Source: Methanosaeta sp. PtaU1.Bin060 (lineage in GTDB: Archaea > Halobacteriota > Methanosarcinia > Methanotrichales > Methanotrichaceae). From it: DNA of 39,930 bases. Positions 21,316 to 33,538 of this stretch are shown one piece after another. Both the position numbers and the translations under genes were made by a program. The notes beneath the pieces are model-generated. The model was not told the origin of the DNA. It saw nothing but the letters and a program-made list of their open reading frames with translations, and did not search any database. The DNA is taken from positions 1-39,930 of the forward strand of contig MVRK01000068.1 in assembly GCA_002067365.1 (NCBI GenBank), written 5' to 3'. Position 1 is the stretch's first letter; each line of letters opens with the position of its first letter.

Positions 21316-21467
21316 TTCATTGAAACTTAAAACTTAATCATACTTTTCTATCAAAAATCTTAAAAATAGTTCCGAAAAGGAGGAGATGACATTAAAGAAA
21401 ATAACATTAAATAGTTCAATGGGGAGATGGCTCAACCTGCAAAACGACTATTGGGAAGGTGACTGAT
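21316..21467 (+). promoter_or_regulatory. AT-rich cooS control region with a possible 26-codon leader ORF
   Basis: The region contains repeated short AT-rich words (AACTTAA twice at about 21324-21337, ACATTAAA twice at about 21389-21410) and a TATA-like CTTAAAAATA at 21359-21368. A 26-codon frame runs from ATG 21386 to TGA 21464-21466, ending 1 nt before the cooS ATG. GGAGGAG stands directly before its ATG, closer than usual. If the TATA at 21359 is used, transcription would start near 21390 and exclude that ATG. Confidence 0.35.
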
Positions 21468-23315
21468 ATGAGTAAGAACGCTCGCGATAGATCTATAGAT
21501 CCAGCAAGCCAGGAGATGCTCGCTCTGGCATCCCGCGCGGGTCTTGAGACCGCCTGGGACCGCCTGGAGAAGCAGCAGCCCCAATGCGGCTTCGGAGAAC
21601 TAGGCCTCTGCTGCCGCAACTGCAACATGGGCCCCTGCCGCATAGATCCCTTCGGCGAAGGCCCCCAGCGCGGCGTATGCGGCGCAACTGCGGAGATCAT
21701 CGTCGCCAGAAACCTGCTGCGCTCGATTGCGGCAGGCGCTGCAGCCCACTCGGATCACGCCCGCGATGTGGCTCACATCTTCAAGCTCGTCTCACAGGGC
21801 AAAGCCACGAGCTACAGCATCACAGACAAGGCCAAGATGGAGCGGCTGATGAAGGAGTATGGCGTGGCTGACCAGATCGCCCTTGCAGAGGCCATTTTAT
21901 CCGAGTTTGGCAAGCAGGATGGCCCCATCAAGTTCGTCTCAAGGGCTCCTGCGAAGCGCCTCGACCTGTGGAAGAGGCTGGGGATTGAGCCCCGTGGGAT
22001 CGACCGCGAGATCGTCGAGTGCATGCACAGAACCCACATGGGCGTCGACAACGATCCCTTGAACCTGATACTTCAGGGCCTCCGGGCGAGCCTGGCAGAC
22101 GGCTGGGGCGGCTCAATGATCGCCACAGAGCTTCAGGACGTTCTCTTCGGCACTCCAGTCCCCACTTTCTCTGAGACAAATCTCGGGGTCCTGGAGAAGG
22201 AGAAGGTGAACATCGTGGTTCACGGCCACGAGCCCATCCTCTCCCAGATGATTGTGGCAGCTGCCTCAGATCCCGAGATGATAGATCTGGCACAAAATCA
22301 GGGCGCAGAGGGCATCAATGTCGCCGGAATGTGCTGCACAGGCAATGAGATCCTCATGCGCCACGGGGTGCCCTCGGCAGGAAACTTCCTTCAGCAGGAG
22401 CTGGCCGTCGCCACGGGCGCAGTGGATGCGATGATCGTGGATGTTCAGTGCGTCATGCCCGCGCTCGGCGCGTTAGCGGGCTGCTACCACACAAAACTGA
22501 TCTCGACATCGCCCAAGGCGAAGTTCCCTGGAGCGACTCACATGGAGTTTCATGAGGAGACCGCCTACGATACTGCCAGATCCATCGTCAGGGCAGGCAT
22601 CCTGAACTTCAAGAACAGAAATCCCTCGCGGGTCCACATTCCGGAGATCAAATCCAAGGCGATGGTGGGCTTCAGCGTCGAGACTATAGTCGATGCCTTG
22701 GGCGGCAGCCTCGATCCGCTCTTGGGCGCTATCAAGTCCGGCGCGATTCGCGGCATCGGGGCGGTCGTCGGATGCAACAACCCCAAGATTCAGCATGACT
22801 TCGGGCATGTCAACCTCGTCCGGGAGCTGATCAAGAAGAATGTGCTGGTGGTGACCACAGGCTGCAACGCCCTGGCCTGCGCGAAGGCGGAACTCCTGCA
22901 GCCCGAAGCGGCAGATCTGGCCGGAGACGGCCTCAAGGGCATCTGCAAGGCTCTCGGCATCCCGCCGGTGCTGCACATGGGCTCGTGCGTGGACATCAGC
23001 AGGATCCTCGTCGCCGCAGCGGCCATCGCCGACGCTCTGGGCGTTGATATCAGCGACCTGCCGGCTGCCGGGGCTGCTCCAGAGTGGATGAGCGAGAAGG
23101 CGGTGTCGATCGGAGCCTATGTCATAGGCTCAGGCGTCTTCACAGTGCTTGGAACAGTGCCTCCGGTCCTCGGGAGCCCTGCTGTGGCTGCGCTGCTGAC
23201 AGAAGGGGCGAAGGACGTCCTGGGCGCGAGCTTCGCAGTCGAGCCGGATCCCTTCAAGGCGGCATCTCTCATGATCGAGCATATCGATGAACAGCGAAAG
23301 AAGCTGGGGCTGTGA
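21468..23315 (+). CDS. cooS: Anaerobic carbon-monoxide dehydrogenase, catalytic subunit
   Basis: CooS is the Ni-Fe-S enzyme that interconverts CO and CO2. The 615 residues from ATG 21468 have the metal ligands in the expected order. The N-terminal cysteines are Cys40, 48, 49, 52, 57 and 71, with exactly the spacing known for the D- and B-clusters of CooS. C-cluster ligands are visible in VVHGHEPI (His), VAGMCCTG, VDVQCVMP, VVGCNNPK, TTGCNALAC and MGSCVDIS. This is the monofunctional bacterial-type form, not the CdhA subunit of the acetyl-CoA decarbonylase. GGGAAGGTG precedes the ATG; the GTG at 21459 is an alternative start. cooF overlaps its stop. No cooC (nickel insertion) gene is adjacent. 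Confidence 0.97.
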   Translation: MSKNARDRSIDPASQEMLALASRAGLETAWDRLEKQQPQCGFGELGLCCRNCNMGPCRIDPFGEGPQRGVCGATAEIIVARNLLRSIAAGAAAHSDHARDVAHIFKLVSQGKATSYSITDKAKMERLMKEYGVADQIALAEAILSEFGKQDGPIKFVSRAPAKRLDLWKRLGIEPRGIDREIVECMHRTHMGVDNDPLNLILQGLRASLADGWGGSMIATELQDVLFGTPVPTFSETNLGVLEKEKVNIVVHGHEPILSQMIVAAASDPEMIDLAQNQGAEGINVAGMCCTGNEILMRHGVPSAGNFLQQELAVATGAVDAMIVDVQCVMPALGALAGCYHTKLISTSPKAKFPGATHMEFHEETAYDTARSIVRAGILNFKNRNPSRVHIPEIKSKAMVGFSVETIVDALGGSLDPLLGAIKSGAIRGIGAVVGCNNPKIQHDFGHVNLVRELIKKNVLVVTTGCNALACAKAELLQPEAADLAGDGLKGICKALGIPPVLHMGSCVDISRILVAAAAIADALGVDISDLPAAGAAPEWMSEKAVSIGAYVIGSGVFTVLGTVPPVLGSPAVAALLTEGAKDVLGASFAVEPDPFKAASLMIEHIDEQRKKLGL

Positions 23316-23918: not shown

Positions 23919-25286
23919 CTAGACTATAGGAGTCATGCTGATCCTGTTCCTCTCCTCCAGGAACATATTGTAGGGCTCAGTGCGCGGAATAATGCCATAG
24001 AGGCAGAGGCCGCCATTCAGCTCGTTGACCAGGAAGTAGGTATCCGCGGTGTGAATGGCCATGTTCATGCTCTCCTGGCCGCTTTTCACTATCAGCAGGT
24101 TTATGTCGTTTGTCTCCTTCCACTTGCGGATCATGAGGTTTGCAAGATTCAGGACCTCCTTGTAGCCGAAGGCGAACTCCATGGCGTCGAGGCCTATGAT
24201 GTTCAGGATGGGCCTGCCGGTTCTCTCGCGCAGCACATCCCACTTTTTCAGTACGTCCTTGCCCCATATCTCAGGCTCTTCCCCCTGAGGCTGGGAGACG
24301 ACGACGTTGGTGGGCACGAAGATATCCCGCGAGCTGAGCTGGTAGCCTATGGACGGAAGGATGAAGACACCTCTTCCGTTCTTCAATGCATTGGAGGCGA
24401 GCGCCGTCAGGACCTGGTAGTACCTCTTCCCCACGCCGTGATCTATCTCCATCAGGTTGCATGATCCGTACTTGAGGCCGCCAGTGATGGCATCCAGGTC
24501 AGGAATGCCTGTTGAGATCCTATCGTCTCCGGGGTCTGGGATCCTCACAACATCGCTCGCAATCCTGGCGTCGCTGTGCTCCCTGTAGGGCTCGAAGTAG
24601 CTGAACCTTCCGCCATGAAGCGTTGAGGTATAGGTCTTCTGCCTGATCTCCACGCCCCGAAGCTTGTTGAGCCTGATCTGGCGGGCGTAGCGCGTCCTCA
24701 TTCCCTCATAGTTGGGGAGCGAGAACTGCTCCATTGTCACGACGCCGTCGACGATGTAGTCAAGAGGCATCACATTCGCAAACTCGCTGACGAAGATGAG
24801 GTGAGTGTCCAGGTCCCTGGCGAACTCGCAGATATTCTGCTCGAAGCTGTGCTGCGAATCGCCGATCAGATGTGATGTGTAGTTCAGCACCGCATCCCAG
24901 CTGTCGATGATGATCATGGGGTTGTCCATCTCCTCAGCCTCGTCGAAGAAGACCTTGAAGAAGTCGAGGACTGCGTAGTAGTTGGTGAGCCCAGCGCTCC
25001 TCATGCCCTTCAGACTATCGAGGAGCTTGGTCTGCGTCGCATTCACAATGTTCTTCGGAGGTACTATCTCCTTCACCCAGGGATGAGTGGCATAGAGCCT
25101 CTTCGGGTCTATCCTGGTGGATATATACATCCCGTTCTTGCTCTCGCAGAGGCTGCTCATGACCTCCAGGGCCAGGGTCGTCTTGCCAGTGCCGGGCTGC
25201 CCCTTGATGAGAAGCGTCTGGCCGCTCTCCATCTGGAAGAAGTCCTTGATCTCATTGGGTATGGACATCCGCGCTCCGCTAGACAT
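23919..25286 (-). CDS. KaiC/RAD55/GvpD-like double-domain ATPase
   Basis: This 455-residue cytosolic protein has two RecA-like halves. The first has an intact Walker A (GQPGTGKTT, residues 29-37) and Walker B (PMIIIDSWD, with Asp128) and is likely to bind ATP. The second begins about residue 255 (RISTGIPDLDAITGGL), as KaiC domains do, but its P-loop at about 280-290 (EIDHGVGKRYY) is degenerate. It resembles archaeal RAD55-type and GvpD-like regulators, which control transcription or signalling, not DNA repair. I prefer the ATG at 25286, with GGAGAG five bases upstream, to the GTG at 25298, which abuts GAGGAG. It follows the winged-helix gene in the same operon. Confidence 0.82.
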   Translation of the reverse strand: MSSGARMSIPNEIKDFFQMESGQTLLIKGQPGTGKTTLALEVMSSLCESKNGMYISTRIDPKRLYATHPWVKEIVPPKNIVNATQTKLLDSLKGMRSAGLTNYYAVLDFFKVFFDEAEEMDNPMIIIDSWDAVLNYTSHLIGDSQHSFEQNICEFARDLDTHLIFVSEFANVMPLDYIVDGVVTMEQFSLPNYEGMRTRYARQIRLNKLRGVEIRQKTYTSTLHGGRFSYFEPYREHSDARIASDVVRIPDPGDDRISTGIPDLDAITGGLKYGSCNLMEIDHGVGKRYYQVLTALASNALKNGRGVFILPSIGYQLSSRDIFVPTNVVVSQPQGEEPEIWGKDVLKKWDVLRERTGRPILNIIGLDAMEFAFGYKEVLNLANLMIRKWKETNDINLLIVKSGQESMNMAIHTADTYFLVNELNGGLCLYGIIPRTEPYNMFLEERNRISMTPIV

Positions 25287-25301
25287 CGATCTCTCCACTC
25301 C

Positions 25302-25685
25302 TCAGCAGTTGTCAGCTACTTTGCAGATGCATTTCTTTGCGCGCTTCATGAGGCTGCAGATATGGTCGGGCTTGACCCGGAAGGTGAAGTAGATGGTGCT
25401 GCTATCACCGTCGCAGAAGTCGATGTCCACCACAGGAAGGGCCTCGATCTCCATCCTGGCGTCGGATAATTGCGCATCTGGGCGCTTTCCAGCGGAGTTC
25501 TTGGTCCTCCAGAGCTTGGAAGGTCCAACCTCCACGAACTCCACCTCGCCCTCGGAGCTGAGCACTGAGAGGTACTTTATGACTGTGGTCTTGCTGACGC
25601 CTGCCTTCTTGGCGACATCCACCGTCGTGAGGCCAACCTCGGATTCCCTGATGACCTCCAGTATCCTTTCTTTGTAGGACGCCAT
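25302..25685 (-). CDS. Winged-helix regulator with cysteine-rich C-terminus
   Basis: This 127-residue protein begins with a helix-turn-helix of the winged type, residues about 5-60: ERILEVIRESEVGLTTVDVA, then KKAGVSKTTVIKYLSVLSSE and a wing ending KLWRTKN. The C-terminal half (80-127) is a beta strand region followed by five cysteines at 91, 110, 119, 121 and 127, the last four within 18 residues (pattern C-x8-C-x-C-x5-C). That suggests metal or redox sensing. It is the first gene of a two-gene operon with the KaiC-like ATPase, whose start lies 15 nt after its stop. Function is unassigned; a regulator whose partner is the ATPase is an inference. Confidence 0.8.
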   Translation of the reverse strand: MASYKERILEVIRESEVGLTTVDVAKKAGVSKTTVIKYLSVLSSEGEVEFVEVGPSKLWRTKNSAGKRPDAQLSDARMEIEALPVVDIDFCDGDSSTIYFTFRVKPDHICSLMKRAKKCICKVADNC

Positions 25686-26112: not shown

Positions 26113-27855
26113 ATGCGTGCAGCGCTGAATTGGTGCCTGAAAGGTCTGAAGATAATTATATTATTAATCTTCCTGATGGAGACGGTCGCCGCTGAGGATG
26201 TACATTACGGCACCATCTATGGGCAGGTCTATGATGCCAAGACCAAGCAGCCGATCTCAGGAGCATGGGTGTATTGCCAGGAGGCCAAATGCCCGATGCA
26301 GCTGACAGACTGCGAGGGACGCTATGCCATCAAGAATGGCATCCAGCCGCTTGGCACCTACACCATCGAATGCGCAAGATATGGATATCAATTGAAGAAG
26401 AACATAACCCGAACAGATTCCAGAGGCAAAGCAAATGCGGACTTCAGTCTAGAGCCATTATCAGCTGCAGAGAGCTCTGACTCTCTTCAGAGAGCTTCCA
26501 ATGGCTCTGTGCCACATCAGAGCGAAAGCCGGAAGGCCGAGACGACGCCCGGGTCTGGAAAGGTATCTGGCACGGGCAGCATCAGAAAGGAATATCGCAT
26601 AATGAATGGTGCAAATGATCATGCCAATCTGTCTGTAGATATATTAAATGCCACATATTATGAATATGAGTACAATATTCATTCAGATGAGGCGCGATGC
26701 CTTGCCGACCTGGATTTGGCTGTCAAGAAGGCAGAGAGCATCACATGCTCAGGGATTGCAAAAAACAGAGACGGCATCCCTGCAGACATAACCATAAGAA
26801 TGAAAAATGGGGACTTGACGTACAGCAATTATGTCGTCGCCTCTGATCAGGGCGTGCAGGCCTCTCAGAATATAATTGAGACGACCGGCAGAGATGTTGA
26901 CGTCAATGGCGAGGCACTCGGAGATGATGATGCAATCATGGCGAACATCATCCGTGCGCGCCACAGCGAGAGCCTCAATGGCACCCAAAAGATATCAGCC
27001 GGCGAAGATACATCAATATGCACCAGCGTCAATGCCGTAGCCGGGCCTCTGTATATCTGGTCTTATACGGTGGCCGAAGATCACATCATCAACGCCACTG
27101 CAGATGTTGCCGCGGGCTCTGCGTCAGTCAATCAGAGCATGAACCTCACTGGTGCATATCAGAGACTAAAGGGGATGACCGGCGGGTCTAGCCTGGAGAC
27201 ATCGGCGAAGAACACTGCTGGAAACGGGAGCCATCTGTATGCAACAGCTGGAAGTGGAGATCTTCAGCTGTCTCAGCAGGCTTCAGCCGCAGACGCTTCA
27301 TATGAGATGAATTATGAATACATGCCAGTCAGATATTCAACAGGGACATACGATACAGAGTATGCAAGGGCGAGCTCAGAGGTGAACTCTGACAAAAAGG
27401 CAGCCAACGATTTGCTGGCAAGTAACTGCGAACAGATGCATGTTTCACAGAAGACTGATCTGGACAAGGATCTTCTGACTCATATAGGCCTTGATGCAAT
27501 CGCTGGGCCTCTGGATGTCAGGTCCTATATAGCAGCCGAAGATCGCATCCTCGACGCCACTGCAGATGTTGATGCAGGTTCGGTGAGCATCGATCAGGGC
27601 GTAAATCTCACAGATGCCTCTCAGTCCTGCAAGGGTGTGGCCGGCGGATGTATGTTCTTCACTGCGATCACGAACGCTGAAAAAAAGACAACAAGGGCAT
27701 TTACCACTCTTGGGAGCGGTAATGTGATTGATCTTGCTCAACTTGCCTCACTGAAAGACGCCTGGTACAGAGTAGAATATGAATACGTGCCTGTCTCCTA
27801 TCAGACGGGAACATATGATACAGACCTGAATACGAGCCGGATCGATAGGTACTGA
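26113..27855 (+). CDS. Large secreted protein with CarboxypepD_reg-like domain and duplicated repeat
   Basis: A 580-residue exported protein with a signal peptide (LKIIILLIFLMETVAAE). Residues about 30-115 form a carboxypeptidase-regulatory-like beta sandwich (GTIYGQVYDAKTKQPISGAW ... CEGRYAIKNG ... GTYTIECARYGYQL). A serine/threonine-rich linker and a third, partly related segment follow (to about residue 300). Residues 308-416 and 462-571 are tandem copies of a roughly 110-residue unit, each opening AGPL and closing TGTYDT. N-glycosylation sequons are frequent. The function is unknown; an S-layer or surface role is inferred. The ATG of mtrA lies 1 nt after its stop, which is unexpected for a secreted protein and a cytosolic enzyme. 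Confidence 0.8.
   Translation: MRAALNWCLKGLKIIILLIFLMETVAAEDVHYGTIYGQVYDAKTKQPISGAWVYCQEAKCPMQLTDCEGRYAIKNGIQPLGTYTIECARYGYQLKKNITRTDSRGKANADFSLEPLSAAESSDSLQRASNGSVPHQSESRKAETTPGSGKVSGTGSIRKEYRIMNGANDHANLSVDILNATYYEYEYNIHSDEARCLADLDLAVKKAESITCSGIAKNRDGIPADITIRMKNGDLTYSNYVVASDQGVQASQNIIETTGRDVDVNGEALGDDDAIMANIIRARHSESLNGTQKISAGEDTSICTSVNAVAGPLYIWSYTVAEDHIINATADVAAGSASVNQSMNLTGAYQRLKGMTGGSSLETSAKNTAGNGSHLYATAGSGDLQLSQQASAADASYEMNYEYMPVRYSTGTYDTEYARASSEVNSDKKAANDLLASNCEQMHVSQKTDLDKDLLTHIGLDAIAGPLDVRSYIAAEDRILDATADVDAGSVSIDQGVNLTDASQSCKGVAGGCMFFTAITNAEKKTTRAFTTLGSGNVIDLAQLASLKDAWYRVEYEYVPVSYQTGTYDTDLNTSRIDRY
27034..27360 (+). repeat. Repeat unit 1 in the secreted protein
   Basis: Encodes residues 308-416, starting AVAGPLYIWSYTVAEDHI and ending YSTGTYDTE. 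It aligns along its length with unit 2. Confidence 0.65.
27496..27825 (+). repeat. Repeat unit 2 in the secreted protein
   Basis: Encodes residues 462-571, starting AIAGPLDVRSYIAAEDRI and ending YQTGTYDTD. The shared anchors with unit 1 are AGPL, AEDxIxxATADVxAGS, NLT, YEY(M/V)PVxY and TGTYDT. Confidence 0.65.
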
Positions 27856-27856
27856 A

Positions 27857-28513
27857 ATGAGCGATTCAATGAACAAGGCCGATGGCGCTACGGCTGAGGC
27901 GTCCAAGAGGGGCTACGAGGATTCATGGCCGCCTGTTCGGGGTGACTACATTATCGGCAACCCGGCTGCAGGAGTGGCTGTAGTGACCCTGGCAAGCCAG
28001 GTCTTCGCACGGGAGAGCCTTGACGCCCGCACAGTTCGAGGAGCTGCAATGATAGGCCCCTGCGTGACTGAGAACCTGGGAGTCGAGAAGGTGGTGGCCA
28101 ATATAATCTCAAACTCCAATATCCGCTTTCTTCTGGTCTGCGGCGCCGAGTCGAAGGGCCACCTGCCGGGCAACACGATTCTTGCGCTTCACAGGAACGG
28201 CATCGATGATCAGGGCAGGATCGTGGGATCGAGGGGTGCCATCCCCTTCATCCAGAACCTGCCGCCTGAGGCTGTAAAGCGCTTTCAGGAGCAGGTCGAG
28301 CTGGTAGACCGCATCGGCCTTGAGGAGAAGGCGGAGATCGAGCGGCTGATCGAGGAGTACAATGCCCTAGCGCGGCCTTACCCGGAGGAGCCCTTCCAGG
28401 TCTTCAGGAGAAGGATCAGGCCCGAGTTGGCCGCCGCCGGGGAGGGCGATCTGACCTTCGGCGAGGGCGTTGTCGCTGACACATCTTCGTGGCTTGTTTT
28501 TTCTGAGGTGTGA
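27857..28513 (+). CDS. mtrA: MtrA-like cobamide-binding methyltransferase subunit, soluble form
   Basis: MtrA carries the cobamide that receives the methyl group from methyl-H4MPT in the membrane-bound, sodium-pumping Mtr complex. The 218-residue chain has the family blocks WPPVRGDYIIGNPAAGVAVV, GPCVTENLGVEKVVANIISN, IRFLLVCGAESKGH and GAIPFIQNLPPEAVKRFQEQ. The histidine corresponding to the axial cobalt ligand of MtrA (His84 in Methanothermobacter) is present as His102 in SKGHLPG. The protein ends TSSWLVFSEV with no C-terminal membrane helix, unlike Mtr-complex MtrA (about 240 residues with an anchor). It starts 1 nt after the upstream gene (an ATG at 27869 is the alternative) and mtrH follows after 3 nt. 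None of the other mtr genes (E, D, C, B, F, G) is in the window. Confidence 0.9.
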   Translation: MSDSMNKADGATAEASKRGYEDSWPPVRGDYIIGNPAAGVAVVTLASQVFARESLDARTVRGAAMIGPCVTENLGVEKVVANIISNSNIRFLLVCGAESKGHLPGNTILALHRNGIDDQGRIVGSRGAIPFIQNLPPEAVKRFQEQVELVDRIGLEEKAEIERLIEEYNALARPYPEEPFQVFRRRIRPELAAAGEGDLTFGEGVVADTSSWLVFSEV

Positions 28514-28516
28514 TAA

Positions 28517-29434
28517 GTGTTCAGGTTCAGGCGCGAGCAGTCAGTCGTGAACGTGAGCGGCGTGAAGCTCGGAGGACAGCCGGGCGAGCTGGCGACTGTT
28601 CTTTGCGGCACCATCTTCTACCAGGGACATAGGGTTGTGAAGGATGAGGAGAAGGGCCTCTTCGATCGCGAAAGGGCGGAGGGGCTTGTGGCCAGGCAGG
28701 CAGAGCTGGCTGAGGAGACAGGGTGCCCCGCAGTGCTGCACCTCTACGCCAGGACTGCAGATGCCTTCGAGAGGTATCTCGACTTTGCCGAAAGGTCCTG
28801 GGGCGGCCCCATCATCGTCGACTCTGCAGATCCCGCTGTGCGCGCTTTCGCTGCGCGGCTCGTATCCGAGCTGGGGTATGCGGACAGGGTCATATACAAC
28901 AGCATCAGCCTCGCCAACTCCGAAGAGGAGATGGATGCCGTCAGGGATTCGGAGGTCGACTCGGCGATCCTTTTGGCCTACAACCCCTCCGAGCCGGGCG
29001 TCGATGGCTCCCTGAAGGTTCTGGAGACAGGAGGCTCTGTGATGGTGAAAGGCCTGATAACCCTGGCGAGGGAGCTGGGATTCGCCAACCTGCTCGTCGA
29101 TCCCGGTGTCTTGCCCCTGGGAAGCGGAGCTGGAGCTGCGTTGCGCTTCTCAGTGGTGGCTAAGGCGAGGCTCGGTTTGCCCGTCGGCTCTGGAATTCAC
29201 AATGCTATGAGCACATGGGCTTGGCTGAGAGAGAAGGAGACGACATCCAGAAAATGCTGCGACGCAGCTGCTGCGGCGATGCAGCTTCTAGCAGCAGCCG
29301 ACTTCCTCCTCTATGGCCCCATAGAGAACGCCGATTTCATCTTTCCTGCGGCTGCCATGGCCGACATCCTGATCGCCGAGGCTGTGAGCGACCTGGTAGA
29401 GGATGCCGGCCATCCTCTGCACAGGCTAATCTGA
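28517..29434 (+). CDS. mtrH: MtrH-like methyl-H4MPT:cobamide methyltransferase
   Basis: MtrH is the soluble subunit that moves the methyl group from methyl-H4MPT to the cobamide on MtrA. The 305-residue TIM barrel begins FRFRREQSVVNVSGVKLGGQ and has LCGTIFYQGHRVVKDEEKGL, PIIVDSADP, RVIYNSISLANSEEEMDA, ILLAYNPSEPGVDGSL, LPLGSGAGAALRFSVVAKAR, LPVGSGIHNAMSTWAWLR and FLLYGPIENADFIFPAAAM, all matching methanogen MtrH. It starts with GTG at 28517, preceded by GAGGTG. It forms an operon with the soluble mtrA. Either the two replace the usual genes or they are extra copies; the rest of the genome would be needed to tell. Confidence 0.94.
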   Translation: MFRFRREQSVVNVSGVKLGGQPGELATVLCGTIFYQGHRVVKDEEKGLFDRERAEGLVARQAELAEETGCPAVLHLYARTADAFERYLDFAERSWGGPIIVDSADPAVRAFAARLVSELGYADRVIYNSISLANSEEEMDAVRDSEVDSAILLAYNPSEPGVDGSLKVLETGGSVMVKGLITLARELGFANLLVDPGVLPLGSGAGAALRFSVVAKARLGLPVGSGIHNAMSTWAWLREKETTSRKCCDAAAAAMQLLAAADFLLYGPIENADFIFPAAAMADILIAEAVSDLVEDAGHPLHRLI

Positions 29435-29523: not shown

Positions 29524-30768
29524 ATGTATCTTTCCCGCGAGGAGGATGGCATCCTCCAGGGCGATCAGGGCGAGACACTGCGCAGGATGATGGAGATCCT
29601 CGTAGCCCTGGGGGACATCTACGGTGCCGAGAGGCTCGTGCCAGTCAGGAGCGCCCAGATCGCGGGCGTCTCCTTCAAGAACATCGGCGAGGCTGGCCTT
29701 GAGTGGATCTCGGACCTGCAAGGGCATGTGGCTGTTCCAAGCATCCTCAATCCAGCCGGCATGGACCTAGAACGGTGGAAAGAGATGGGCATCGACGAGG
29801 ACTTCGCCGCCCGCCAGAGGGAGGTGGTCCGGGCCTATGAGCGCCTGGGCGTAACAGCGGACTGCACCTGCACCCCCTACCAGATCCATCCCGACCTCGT
29901 CAGGCGGGGAGATCACCTCGCCTGGAGCGAGTCGTCTGCTGTATCCTATGCCAACTCGGTTCTCGGCGCGAGGACGAACCGCGAGGGGGGGCCATCCGCA
30001 CTCGCGGCGGCCCTGGTGGGCAAGACGCCCCTCTACGGATATCACCTGGACGAGAACAGAAGGCCGACCCACATAATAGCGGTAGACGCAGATCTGAAGG
30101 GTTCAGACTACGGTGCCCTGGGGTTTCTCGCCGGGAGGATAGTGAAGGACGGCGTGCCCCTCTTCAGGCTTCGAGGAAGGCCGGAGCAGGACGATCTGAA
30201 GGCGCTTGGCGCTGCTATGGCAGCCAGCGGCTCTGTCGCCCTCTACTTCGTCGAGGGTCTCACGCCATACCCCGCTTCTGGATCGTCCTCGCAGAGAAAT
30301 GATCGTGGGAACGAGAAGAGCAATCAGTGGATCAATAAGAATATTGACAAAAAAATCGAGAGGGAAGCCGCTGAGAAGATCGCGCTGGAGAACAAAGATA
30401 TCGATGAGGTCTACGAAAGATATCCCCCAGGCGATTCCGAGATGGTGGCCCTCGGCTGCCCCCACTGCTCCAGGGCAGAGCTTGAGAGGATCGCCGCTCT
30501 TCTGGATGGCAGGAAGGCCCGAAGGGAGCTGTGGGTCTGCACCGCCAGGAGGATCGCCGAGGCATCTCCTGATCTCGTGTCAAGGATCGAGAGGAGCGGT
30601 GCGAAGGTGATCTGCGACACCTGCATGGTCGTCTCCCCTGCGAGCGAGAGATTCAGGAAGATGCTCGTCAACTCCGGCAAGGCATTGTCGTACATCCCCG
30701 GCCTATGCGGCGTCGAGGCAGGCTTTGCGAGCACCGAGGATTGCATCAGCATGGCAGAGGAGGATTAA
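29524..30768 (+). CDS. Phosphomevalonate dehydratase, large subunit (aconitase X)
   Basis: Aconitase X large subunit, which in most archaea dehydrates 5-phosphomevalonate to trans-anhydromevalonate phosphate in the modified mevalonate pathway to isoprenoid lipids. The 414-residue chain has AERLVPVRSAQIAGVSFKN, then the cysteine region ADCTCTPYQIHP (Cys114, Cys116), WSESSAVSYANSVLGARTNR (the active-site segment), GCPHCS (Cys312, Cys315) and CDTCMVVSP (Cys364, Cys367), sources of the Fe-S cluster ligands. Residues about 250-280 are an unusual hydrophilic insertion (SGSSSQRNDRGNEKSNQW and on), noticeably AT-rich. The small subunit gene follows after 3 nt. Confidence 0.93.
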   Translation: MYLSREEDGILQGDQGETLRRMMEILVALGDIYGAERLVPVRSAQIAGVSFKNIGEAGLEWISDLQGHVAVPSILNPAGMDLERWKEMGIDEDFAARQREVVRAYERLGVTADCTCTPYQIHPDLVRRGDHLAWSESSAVSYANSVLGARTNREGGPSALAAALVGKTPLYGYHLDENRRPTHIIAVDADLKGSDYGALGFLAGRIVKDGVPLFRLRGRPEQDDLKALGAAMAASGSVALYFVEGLTPYPASGSSSQRNDRGNEKSNQWINKNIDKKIEREAAEKIALENKDIDEVYERYPPGDSEMVALGCPHCSRAELERIAALLDGRKARRELWVCTARRIAEASPDLVSRIERSGAKVICDTCMVVSPASERFRKMLVNSGKALSYIPGLCGVEAGFASTEDCISMAEED

Positions 30769-30771
30769 ACC

Positions 30772-31167
30772 TTGGAGTTCAGATGCCACAGGGTCGCCTC
30801 GGGCTGCGCCTGCGGTCCGGCGCTCGTCACGAGGGAGCCGATATCCTTCCTCGGAAACGTCGATCCGGAGACGGGCAGGGTCATCGATCCGTCTCATGAG
30901 CTTTGCGGCAAGTGCGTCAGCGGGAAGGTGCTCATCTTTCCGGGGGGCAAGGGCTCCACAGTCGGCTCCTACGTCATATACCAGCTGAAGAAGAGGGGCC
31001 TGGCACCAAATGCCATGATAAACCTTCGGGCGGAGCCCATCGTCGCAGTGGGCGCTATCATCAGCGGGATTCCTCTGGTGGACAGAGTGCCCGAGGAGGT
31101 GCTCGGGATTGCCGAAGGAGCAGAGGTCTTGGTTGACGCCGACGGAGAGGTCGTCGAGGTGCTCTGA
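30772..31167 (+). CDS. Phosphomevalonate dehydratase, small subunit (DUF126/AcnX swivel)
   Basis: The 131-residue small subunit forms the swivelling domain that covers the active site of the large subunit. It has RVASGCACGPALVTREPISF at the start, then GNVDPETGRVIDPSHELCGK, a serine/glycine loop FPGGKGSTVGSYVIYQLKKR, and a C-terminal IPLVDRVPEEVLGIAEG. Translation starts from TTG at 30772, 3 nt after the large-subunit stop, so the two are coupled. It ends just before the convergent artA-mptD operon (31168-31201 between them), with no obvious hairpin or T-tract. Confidence 0.93.
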   Translation: MEFRCHRVASGCACGPALVTREPISFLGNVDPETGRVIDPSHELCGKCVSGKVLIFPGGKGSTVGSYVIYQLKKRGLAPNAMINLRAEPIVAVGAIISGIPLVDRVPEEVLGIAEGAEVLVDADGEVVEVL

Positions 31168-31201: not shown

Positions 31202-31510
31202 TCAGAGAAGCCGCATCAGCGGATAATCCTTTCTTGCGTCGTACTCCAGCCTGGCGCTGACACGCTCACCCTCGTACTCGATCTCCACCTCGGCTGTGAT
31301 CATGCGCCCCGCCAGCTCTCCGTACCCGAAGATGTTCTCCTGCAGCATTTCCCTGTCTATTCTGACTTCGACTCTTCGAACATAGGGCTGAAGCGATATG
31401 CTCTCCTGCATGGCCTTCTCAAGGCTTCCTGCAGAGGCTTTGCCCACAGGCGCTCCCACGAACTGATGGTAGAGAGCGCCGAGCTTTATGCCCGCCTCGA
31501 AGGCGGCTAT
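31202..31510 (-). CDS. mptD: Archaeal dihydroneopterin aldolase MptD (DUF372), noncanonical start
   Basis: MptD makes 6-hydroxymethyl-7,8-dihydropterin for the methanopterin/folate-type pterins of archaea. The chain AAFEAGIKLGALYHQFVGAP, SLEKAMQESISLQPYVRRVE, NIFGYGELAGRMITAEVEIE and DYPLMRLL is typical of DUF372. No ATG, GTG or TTG occurs in this frame between the pssA body and that conserved start. The only positional candidate is ATA at 31510-31508, inside ATAG with the pssA stop, giving 102 residues and continuing the operon's 4-nt overlap pattern. A -1 shift from pssA at CGAAAAG (about 31514-31520) would instead fuse the two. A reading frame extending to 31999 is a shadow apart from this C-terminal part. 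Confidence 0.8.
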   Translation of the reverse strand: MAAFEAGIKLGALYHQFVGAPVGKASAGSLEKAMQESISLQPYVRRVEVRIDREMLQENIFGYGELAGRMITAEVEIEYEGERVSARLEYDARKDYPLMRLL

Positions 31511-32178
31511 TTCTCTTTTCGTAGGCGTGAGAACACCACCGGGCTGATCATGTAGATCATGATGATAGCAATGAGCAGAAGGGCTGCATAGGCGACATCC
31601 TCCTGCTGCCAGATCAGAGATGCAGCTGCCAGGATCATCAGGCCGAGGATACAGAGGGCCCTGATGTCGCGCACCTTCGGATAGGGGGCGCTGCTCACCA
31701 TAAGAAGAGCCAGAACCAGCATGAGAAAGATCGTTGGGATCGATTTTCCATAGAGCACGCTCGCCGCCAGGAGGATGCCAGCTGCAGGGACGGGAAGCCC
31801 CTCGAAGGACTGGTCGTTCTTGGGGGTGGCATTGAACCTTGCCAGCCTCAGCAGGCCCGCGAGCAGATAGAGAAAGCCTGCCTCCAGGATGAAGGGCTGC
31901 CCTCGGAAGGCTGTGACGGCGAGGAACGCGGGCGCAGCTCCAAAGGAGATCAGATCCGCCAGGGAATCTAGGTCTGCACCAATGAGGCTTGAGCCCCACC
32001 TCCTGGCAAGAAAACCATCGATCCCGTCTGAGACAGCCGCGAGAAGGATGAGCACAACTGCAGACTGCATGAAGTAAGGAGCTTCAGCCCGGCTTGCCAT
32101 CAGCAGCGCCGAGAATCCGAGGAGGGCGTTGAGAAGGGTCACACAGTCGGCCGGCTTCAATTCCCGAAGGACGTTCAT
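31507..32178 (-). CDS. pssA: CDP-alcohol phosphatidyltransferase, archaetidylserine synthase
   Basis: It joins CDP-archaeol and L-serine to form archaetidylserine, an integral membrane enzyme. The 223 residues contain the CDP-alcohol phosphatidyltransferase motif, DGIDGFLARRWGSSLIGADL followed by DSLADLISFG, with the aspartates that bind metal. Several membrane helices follow (GFLYLLAGLLRLARF, VLYGKSIPTIFLMLVLALLM, LLLIAIIMIYMISPVVF). The ATG at 32178 overlaps the asd stop in ATGA, and its TAG stop overlaps mptD. With artA and asd upstream it makes the known archaeosortase/archaetidylethanolamine neighbourhood. Confidence 0.94.
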   Translation of the reverse strand: MNVLRELKPADCVTLLNALLGFSALLMASRAEAPYFMQSAVVLILLAAVSDGIDGFLARRWGSSLIGADLDSLADLISFGAAPAFLAVTAFRGQPFILEAGFLYLLAGLLRLARFNATPKNDQSFEGLPVPAAGILLAASVLYGKSIPTIFLMLVLALLMVSSAPYPKVRDIRALCILGLMILAAASLIWQQEDVAYAALLLIAIIMIYMISPVVFSRLRKEK

Positions 32179-32762
32179 GATCGCTTCACCGCAACAACAG
32201 TCTCCCCGGCGCGGACCTTATCGCCCACAGAGACCACCACATCGTAGCACTCTGGGAGGGTCACCTCGACCCTCGATCCGAAGCGGATCATGCCGATCCT
32301 CTCTCCCCGAAGAACTCGATCACCGGCATTAACGTAGCAGATGATCTCCCGGACGATGGTTCCTGTGATCTGGCGAATCTCCATCTCTCCGTCTGAGGTC
32401 TTGATGCAGATCTTGTTCTGCTGGTTGCGGCTCGCTGCTCCCATGAAGGCAGGGAGATGCCCGCCCCTTATGTGCTCTGTCTCGACCACGATCCCATCAA
32501 GGGGGGCCCTGTTCACATGCACATCGACCGGCCCCATGAAGATGGCGATCCGCCTCTCTGAAGCCCGGATTATTCTGCCGTCCGCTGGCGAGACCATGCC
32601 CTCGCCGCCAGGCATCCTGTCTGGGTCCCTGTGGAAGAATATCATGAAGAGGGAGCCCACCAGCGCCGCGGCAGAGATGTACCAGCTTCCGGCTGCAGCC
32701 ATCGCCGCTGTCAGGAAGAGAGGAACAGAGATCCAGGCTGTGGAGTTCCTGGCGAGCCTCAA
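32175..32762 (-). CDS. asd: Archaetidylserine decarboxylase (phosphatidylserine decarboxylase family)
   Basis: It decarboxylates archaetidylserine to archaetidylethanolamine. The 195-residue proenzyme has an N-terminal hydrophobic segment, then the family blocks MVSPADGRIIR, IFMGPVDVHVNRAPLDG and MIRFGSRVEVTLP. Gly162-Ser163 is where such proenzymes cleave themselves to form the pyruvoyl group; the usual 'LGST' reads FGSR here, as in short archaeal/bacterial forms. It starts with TTG at 32762, overlapping the artA stop (TTGA), and pssA overlaps its end (ATGA). Haloarchaeal work links ArtA, PssA and PssD, so these are likely partners. Confidence 0.94.
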   Translation of the reverse strand: MRLARNSTAWISVPLFLTAAMAAAGSWYISAAALVGSLFMIFFHRDPDRMPGGEGMVSPADGRIIRASERRIAIFMGPVDVHVNRAPLDGIVVETEHIRGGHLPAFMGAASRNQQNKICIKTSDGEMEIRQITGTIVREIICYVNAGDRVLRGERIGMIRFGSRVEVTLPECYDVVVSVGDKVRAGETVVAVKRS

Positions 32763-33538
32763 GCTGCATCCTCTCCCGGGTGCTTGATCACCGCTGCCAG
32801 CTCATCTATATTCGAGAGAAGCTCTGGCAGGAGCCTGAATACAAGGTAGGCCACAGCCAGAAGCGCGAGCGTCGAGCCGACCTTGGCGATGAGATTGTGG
32901 GCGACATAGAAGCTGTCGGCTCCGAACCAGTCCCAGCCGTAGGCCAGGAGAACGAAGCCGTTTCTCACTATGTTGAGGAGATAGATCGTGAGCGTCGAGG
33001 CCGCCAGAGCCGCCAGCTTTCGTCCCGCCGGAGCCTGCACGGAGACTATCACACCTGCAAAAAGCGCGATGCTCTCGATGGCTGTGCAGGCGAGGATGAT
33101 CTCCACTGATCTGCCGTTCAATGTCATTGTGTTCCAGCTCACCAGGGCCACTGGAATCGAGAGCGACCTGAGAGAGGCAGCCGTCACAAGAGCTGTGAAC
33201 CCTATAAGCCCATCCCTGAGCGAGACTATCTCGGAGAATGGAAAGTAGATCATCCCGCAAACGCCTGCAGCATAGCTCGCCCAGGCGCATGCCCTGGAGC
33301 GAGAGTCCTTTTTCAGGATTATCCAGGCTATGTAGAGGCAGAAGAGGGCTGCGAAGAGCACCAGGGCTGCGTTGAAGTAGTCCTCCGCGGCCATATAGTG
33401 GCCGGGCTGGCCCAGCCAGAAGAGCGCGAAGAGCACCCAGCCAGGCACAGCTAAAAGGCTTCGGTTCACCAGCGCCGATGCCAGAAGAAGGAGCAAGCCA
33501 ACCCATAGAACATTGGAGATCAGCCAGTCCAGGGACAT
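32759..33538 (-). CDS. artA: Archaeosortase A-like membrane transpeptidase
   Basis: Archaeosortases cut PGF-CTERM surface proteins and attach them to lipid. This 259-residue protein is polytopic, with about eight membrane segments. The catalytic cysteine lies in LACTAIESIALF (Cys151), the conserved arginine in LNIVRNGFV (Arg192), and a third position, His214, in VAHNLIAKVGS; in Haloferax ArtA the third residue is an arginine, so alignment should decide which residue serves here. It starts the artA-asd-pssA-mptD operon; asd overlaps it by 4 nt. I find no PGF-CTERM tail on any protein encoded in the window. Confidence 0.9.
   Translation of the reverse strand: MSLDWLISNVLWVGLLLLLASALVNRSLLAVPGWVLFALFWLGQPGHYMAAEDYFNAALVLFAALFCLYIAWIILKKDSRSRACAWASYAAGVCGMIYFPFSEIVSLRDGLIGFTALVTAASLRSLSIPVALVSWNTMTLNGRSVEIILACTAIESIALFAGVIVSVQAPAGRKLAALAASTLTIYLLNIVRNGFVLLAYGWDWFGADSFYVAHNLIAKVGSTLALLAVAYLVFRLLPELLSNIDELAAVIKHPGEDAA

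Follow-up and report, generated by a model that had tools for sequence, protein, structure and literature searches.

The window, that is, the whole stretch of 39,930 nucleotides analysed here, is a contig (C68) of a 2.78-Mb genome that is 96.6% complete. It carries a gene for a soluble MtrA (mtrA2) followed by a gene for an MtrH-family methyltransferase (mtrH2). The pair and its neighbours are as follows:

21459..23315, plus strand: catalytic subunit of a monofunctional, CooS-type CO dehydrogenase, kept in the vicinity and convergent to the ATPase gene (TIGR01702, 7e-219; synteny)
23919..25298, minus strand: GvpD/KaiC-like ATPase, conserved beside the HTH gene (Pfam GvpD P-loop, 1.5e-22; synteny)
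25302..25685, minus strand: winged-HTH regulator, divergent to mtxA in most Methanothrix-family loci (Pfam HTH matches; synteny)
27857..28513, plus strand: mtrA2, mtxA-type soluble MtrA, cobamide-binding protein of 218 aa (Pfam MtrA, tree, no transmembrane segment, structure model)
28517..29434, plus strand: mtrH2, mtxH-type MtrH of 305 aa, a methyltransferase for CH3-H4MPT/H4SPT belonging to the TIM-barrel family (Pfam MtrH, tree, pterin residues)
29524..30768, plus strand: large subunit of aconitase X, probably a phosphomevalonate dehydratase, a kept downstream neighbour (Pfam AcnX, 2.7e-150)
30772..31167, plus strand: aconitase X small subunit (swivel domain), in conserved order (Pfam, 4.5e-36)

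A gene for a 580-aa predicted secreted protein (26113-27855) stands between the HTH gene and mtxA in the window only and ends 1 bp before mtxA; its product has a carboxypeptidase-regulatory-like domain just under the cut-off, and the other loci compared contained no homologue. Downstream, at 31507-33538, an archaeosortase A gene adjoins genes for phosphatidylserine decarboxylase and archaetidylserine synthase, a region that resembles an archaeal surface-protein anchoring set.

Both reading frames of the pair are intact and separated by a 3-bp gap. MtrA2 matches the Pfam MtrA family (E=6e-58) and MtrH2 the Pfam MtrH family (E=2.5e-100). MtrH2 passes the NCBIfam mtrH cut-off. For MtrA2, the score against the Mtr-complex model TIGR01111 is under the curated cut-off, and its top-scoring model, PRK14053 ('methyltransferase'), is likewise under its cut-off. 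The dN/dS values of the two genes among relatives range from 0.07 to 0.39, and both are therefore constrained; the pair is neither a chance arrangement nor a pseudogene.

The original prediction described a soluble mtrA-mtrH pair apart from the membrane Mtr complex, with an MtrA that retains the cobalt-ligand His102, lacks a C-terminal membrane anchor and is coupled to mtrH alone, and the analysis supports it in each of these respects. In the alignment, His102 is invariant, along with Glu72 and Ile129, and these positions correspond to His84, Glu54 and Ile111 of the Methanothermus fervidus MtrA structure, in which they form the linkage to the cobamide. With regard to the anchor, a Kyte-Doolittle scan (19-residue window) gave a best hydropathy of 0.63 for the hydrophilic last 60 aa of MtrA2, compared with 2.0-2.9 in 26/26 anchored MtrA proteins. 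The AlphaFold model (pLDDT 81) shows a soluble Rossmann domain followed by a small tail rich in strands, and it fits the MtrA domain structures PDB 5LAA and 5L8X (TM about 0.82-0.84 by target length); neither the scan nor the model contains a C-terminal transmembrane helix. None of mtrB, C, D, E, F and G adjoins the pair, all of them being located on another contig.

That contig (C99) of the same genome holds the mtr genes in the order E, D, C, B, A, F, G, H; each is recognized by its own NCBIfam model, and the MtrA of this operon has a membrane anchor. It had been allowed that the pair might be the ordinary Mtr, merely rearranged, in which case the genome would lack any other mtrA or mtrH and the two proteins would cluster with those of the Mtr complex. 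The Pfam families are indeed identical. However, a complete canonical operon is present, MtrA2 has lost the anchor, and MtrA2 and MtrH2 fall in clades apart from Mtr, with mean identities to their Mtr-complex counterparts of about 39% (MtrA) and 42% (MtrH). A rearranged Mtr is thus ruled out by the full operon elsewhere and the separate clades, and the broader idea that the pair represents either this or spare parts for Mtr is exceedingly improbable.

In maximum-likelihood trees, MtrA2 joins MtxA (support 99/98) and MtrH2 joins MtxH (98/87), the MtrH2 proteins of Methanotrichaceae forming a clade of their own (100/100). The mtxXAH genes have been described for Methanosarcinales, and their soluble MtrA has been named 'group II' (PMC4632066, PMC3087415). 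Membership in this group, conservation throughout the family and the aconitase X neighbourhood had not been recognized in the original prediction. A profile of the protein family, run across 238 genomes of the class, detects full-length soluble copies in genera of Methanosarcinaceae, family f4 and a few other groups. The mtxX gene (TIGR03270) lies directly upstream of the pair in the two loci tested, one each from the Methanosarcina family and family f4, and a gene of similar size stands at this place in most of the others. In the genome of the window, the mtxX match sits on a different contig (C60), and no linkage of mtxX to mtxA-mtxH was found throughout the order (50 genomes). Because mtxX is not linked, the proposed orthology is that of the two proteins and not of the mtxXAH operon. 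MtxA/MtxH were already known as an uncharacterized soluble paralogue pair; what is new here is a member in a new gene neighbourhood.

Several residues are characteristic of this type. Ser99, near the ligand histidine, is found in 52/52 MtxA-type rows, whereas valine occupies the position in 26/26 anchored MtrA. In MtrH2, the residues D102, N128, D195 and N229 are invariant in the alignment, and the equivalent Asp/Asn positions bind pterin in MtrH; His75 replaces Gln in the pterin pocket in 51/52 MtxH-type rows. Asp5 of MtrH, which forms a salt bridge with Arg5 of MtrB in M. mazei, is present in 17/17 canonical MtrH, 0/24 MtxH and 1/28 Methanothrix-family copies. Ser99, His75 and the loss of Asp5 appear to mark a separate job for the MtxA/MtxH type, with the caveat that Asp5 is not decisive for membrane docking, since it is also missing from the MtrH of another operon type with an anchored MtrA.

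The 50 genomes surveyed for the order all belong to one family with 11 genera, and a soluble second MtrA was detected in 42 of them, representing every genus. The eight genomes without it are all of the genus of the window; most are partial, but one (G027, locus L146) is 97% complete. G027, G028 and G031 apparently have neither mtxA nor mtxH, and G027 also carries one of the few matches to the URO-D family in the order.

Aconitase X lies within 240 bp 3' of mtrH2 in 27 genomes, and several genera have a gene for CooS-type CO dehydrogenase within a few kb. In genus g8, mtrA2 is separate from mtrH2 and, in the loci examined, accompanied by the divergent HTH and ATPase genes, while aconitase X stays with mtrH2. 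In genus g9, mtrA2 and mtrH2 remain together and aconitase X is found elsewhere, beside mer in two loci examined. An 18-bp AT-rich conserved sequence close to ATATTTCAATTTTTCATA occurs between the HTH gene and mtxA in five loci (L116, L124, L126, L145 and L151) and is a candidate operator; the motif is absent from the window. Other MtrA forms were also observed. In genome G005 (L138:973-1854), an MtrA domain in a 294-aa protein is followed by a C-terminal GYF_2-like domain, and the protein belongs to a long-branched clade with that of locus L234. Genus g11 (L136, L137) has a third MtrA, which ends in an MtrF-like anchor at the C-terminus and is followed downstream by MtrH and Mer; this third MtrA/MtrH set groups with Methanoperedens-type MtrA/MtrH.

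In 30 genomes of the family, the genes mtxA and mtxH stand side by side, and co-transcription is not essential, because they are far apart in genus g8. In two genomes of another genus (G142 and G149), MtxA and MtxH are encoded as one 524-aa ORF, and both Pfam models, MtrA and MtrH, were found in the single chain of the one tested (G142). This natural fusion is strong evidence that the two proteins act as one functional unit, and as a single chain it would be a convenient construct for biochemical and structural work; its structure model has low confidence (pTM 0.51) and carries no information on the interface.

The papers searched contained no biochemistry of MtxA/MtxH. Most likely, and most parsimoniously, the pair is a soluble CH3-H4SPT:cobamide methyltransferase that would work without Na+ coupling. 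Briefly, the TIM barrel of MtxH would bind methyl-tetrahydrosarcinapterin and move the methyl group onto the cobamide, in the Co(I) state, of MtxA, a free cytosolic protein whose His102 would be the lower ligand. The step would be equivalent to the first Mtr half-reaction, reversible and without Na+ transport, and methyl-MtxA would then hand the methyl group to an acceptor that is not the MtrCDE/CoM site. This reading supports the main idea of the original prediction, in which the pair would suffice for methyl transfer between H4MPT and a cobamide but not for sodium pumping and could serve a different methyl donor or acceptor. We assign a probability of about 0.8 to this reading as a whole, i.e., that Methanothrix has its orthologues of mtxA and mtxH in mtrA2 and mtrH2, that they catalyze transfer from CH3-H4SPT to the cobamide, and that the methyl group passes to an acceptor different from the MtrCDE/CoM site.

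With regard to that acceptor, our best guess is that the methyl group of methyl-MtxA goes into a biosynthetic branch. One specific candidate, which is possible though rather doubtful, is that the core synthase MesC would make methionine with methyl-MtxA as the donor. MtrA has been predicted as the donor for MesA (PMC7857596), and MesC homologues occur in this genome and in 226/238 genomes of the class. The MesC query came from the genome taken as M. acetivorans, where its position and the HxH zinc motif reported in PMC7857596 served to identify it. On the other hand, MesC homologues also occur in genera without MtxA, such as g35 (0/27 with an MtxA-type protein), and MtxA is therefore not required for MesC; no mesC lies beside the pair in the loci examined, and Price et al. 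predict a corrinoid iron-sulphur protein as the MesC donor. MesC is ruled out as an obligatory partner, being class-wide regardless of MtxAH. A search with PF01717 (methionine synthase) gave no match in this genome, and the M. acetivorans control was equally without one. A somewhat less likely, speculative version is that MtxA/MtxH would be dedicated to delivering methyl groups in the cytosol from CH3-H4SPT to biosynthetic methylation (methionine or another acceptor), neither spending nor making a Na+ gradient, and that in Methanothrix this delivery would be co-regulated with isoprenoid synthesis (aconitase X).

Two other routes are less probable still. A Na+-independent bypass of Mtr, in which a soluble methylcobamide:CoM methyltransferase would pass the methyl group of methyl-MtxA to CoM or the reverse, is chemically straightforward, and MtxAH would give exactly its first half-reaction; we nevertheless regard it as improbable. 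A URO-D family (MtaA/MtbA) protein is missing from this genome and from 47/50 genomes of the order, and a bypass through enzymes of the MtaA/MtbA type is thus rejected for this genome. The genome that we take to be M. acetivorans (G200) carries the mtx operon. After disruption of mtr in M. acetivorans, growth is reported (PMC13224831) to depend on electron donors other than methanol, and native MtxAH therefore does not replace Mtr there.

The least probable of the proposed roles, to which we give little credence, is that the pair would feed methyl groups of methylated substrates (methylamines, methanol) into H4SPT. This role in methylotrophy was proposed by Harms and Thauer in 1997, as cited in PMC4632066, and mtxXAH was noticed in methylotrophic Methanosarcina. 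However, MtxA occurs in each of the 11 genera of Methanotrichaceae, a family whose members in culture have been described as obligate acetoclasts, and the pair is absent from 27/27 genomes of g35 and 6/6 of g36, which we take to be the methylotrophs Methanolobus and Methanomethylovorans. A role in methylotrophy therefore fits poorly, with acetoclasts keeping the pair and presumed methylotrophic genera lacking it. Every genus of the Methanothrix family has kept the pair, which is under selection there and has a different set of neighbours, whereas it is missing from several other genera, and this argues against the idea; the same distribution makes the question of the methyl acceptor for MtxA testable.

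The soluble methyltransferase proposed here can be compared with several known systems. It has the catalytic residues, the cobalt ligand and the folds in common with MtrA/MtrH of the Mtr complex, but it is without the membrane anchor, the other subunits and the MtrB-docking Asp5. MtxA/MtxH of Methanosarcina are also a soluble MtrA with an MtrH, orthologous in the trees, and their MtxA has the C-terminal tail pattern of MtrA2 and a serine three residues before the ligand histidine. In Methanotrichaceae, by contrast, mtxX is unlinked, the genes for aconitase X, the HTH protein and the KaiC-like ATPase are linked instead, and mtxA and mtxH are apart in one genus. The cytoplasmic MtrA homologue of Methanothermus fervidus (5LAA) is likewise soluble and cobamide-binding; it is, however, 97% identical to the membrane MtrA of the same organism, whereas MtrA2 is an old, divergent paralogue with an MtrH of its own. 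MtgA and other MtrH-family methyltransferases resemble MtrH2 in family and methyl-pterin site, but MtgA uses tetrahydrofolate and another corrinoid protein, and MtrH2 scores 216 bits against the MtgA model, for which the cut-off is 550. Finally, the MtrAH fusions of Asgard archaea (PMC11291895) represent, as here, an MtrA-MtrH unit without membrane subunits; they occur in other lineages and have been described as a distinct clade, whereas the genes in the window are separate and the fusion of G142 and G149 belongs to the MtxAH clade.
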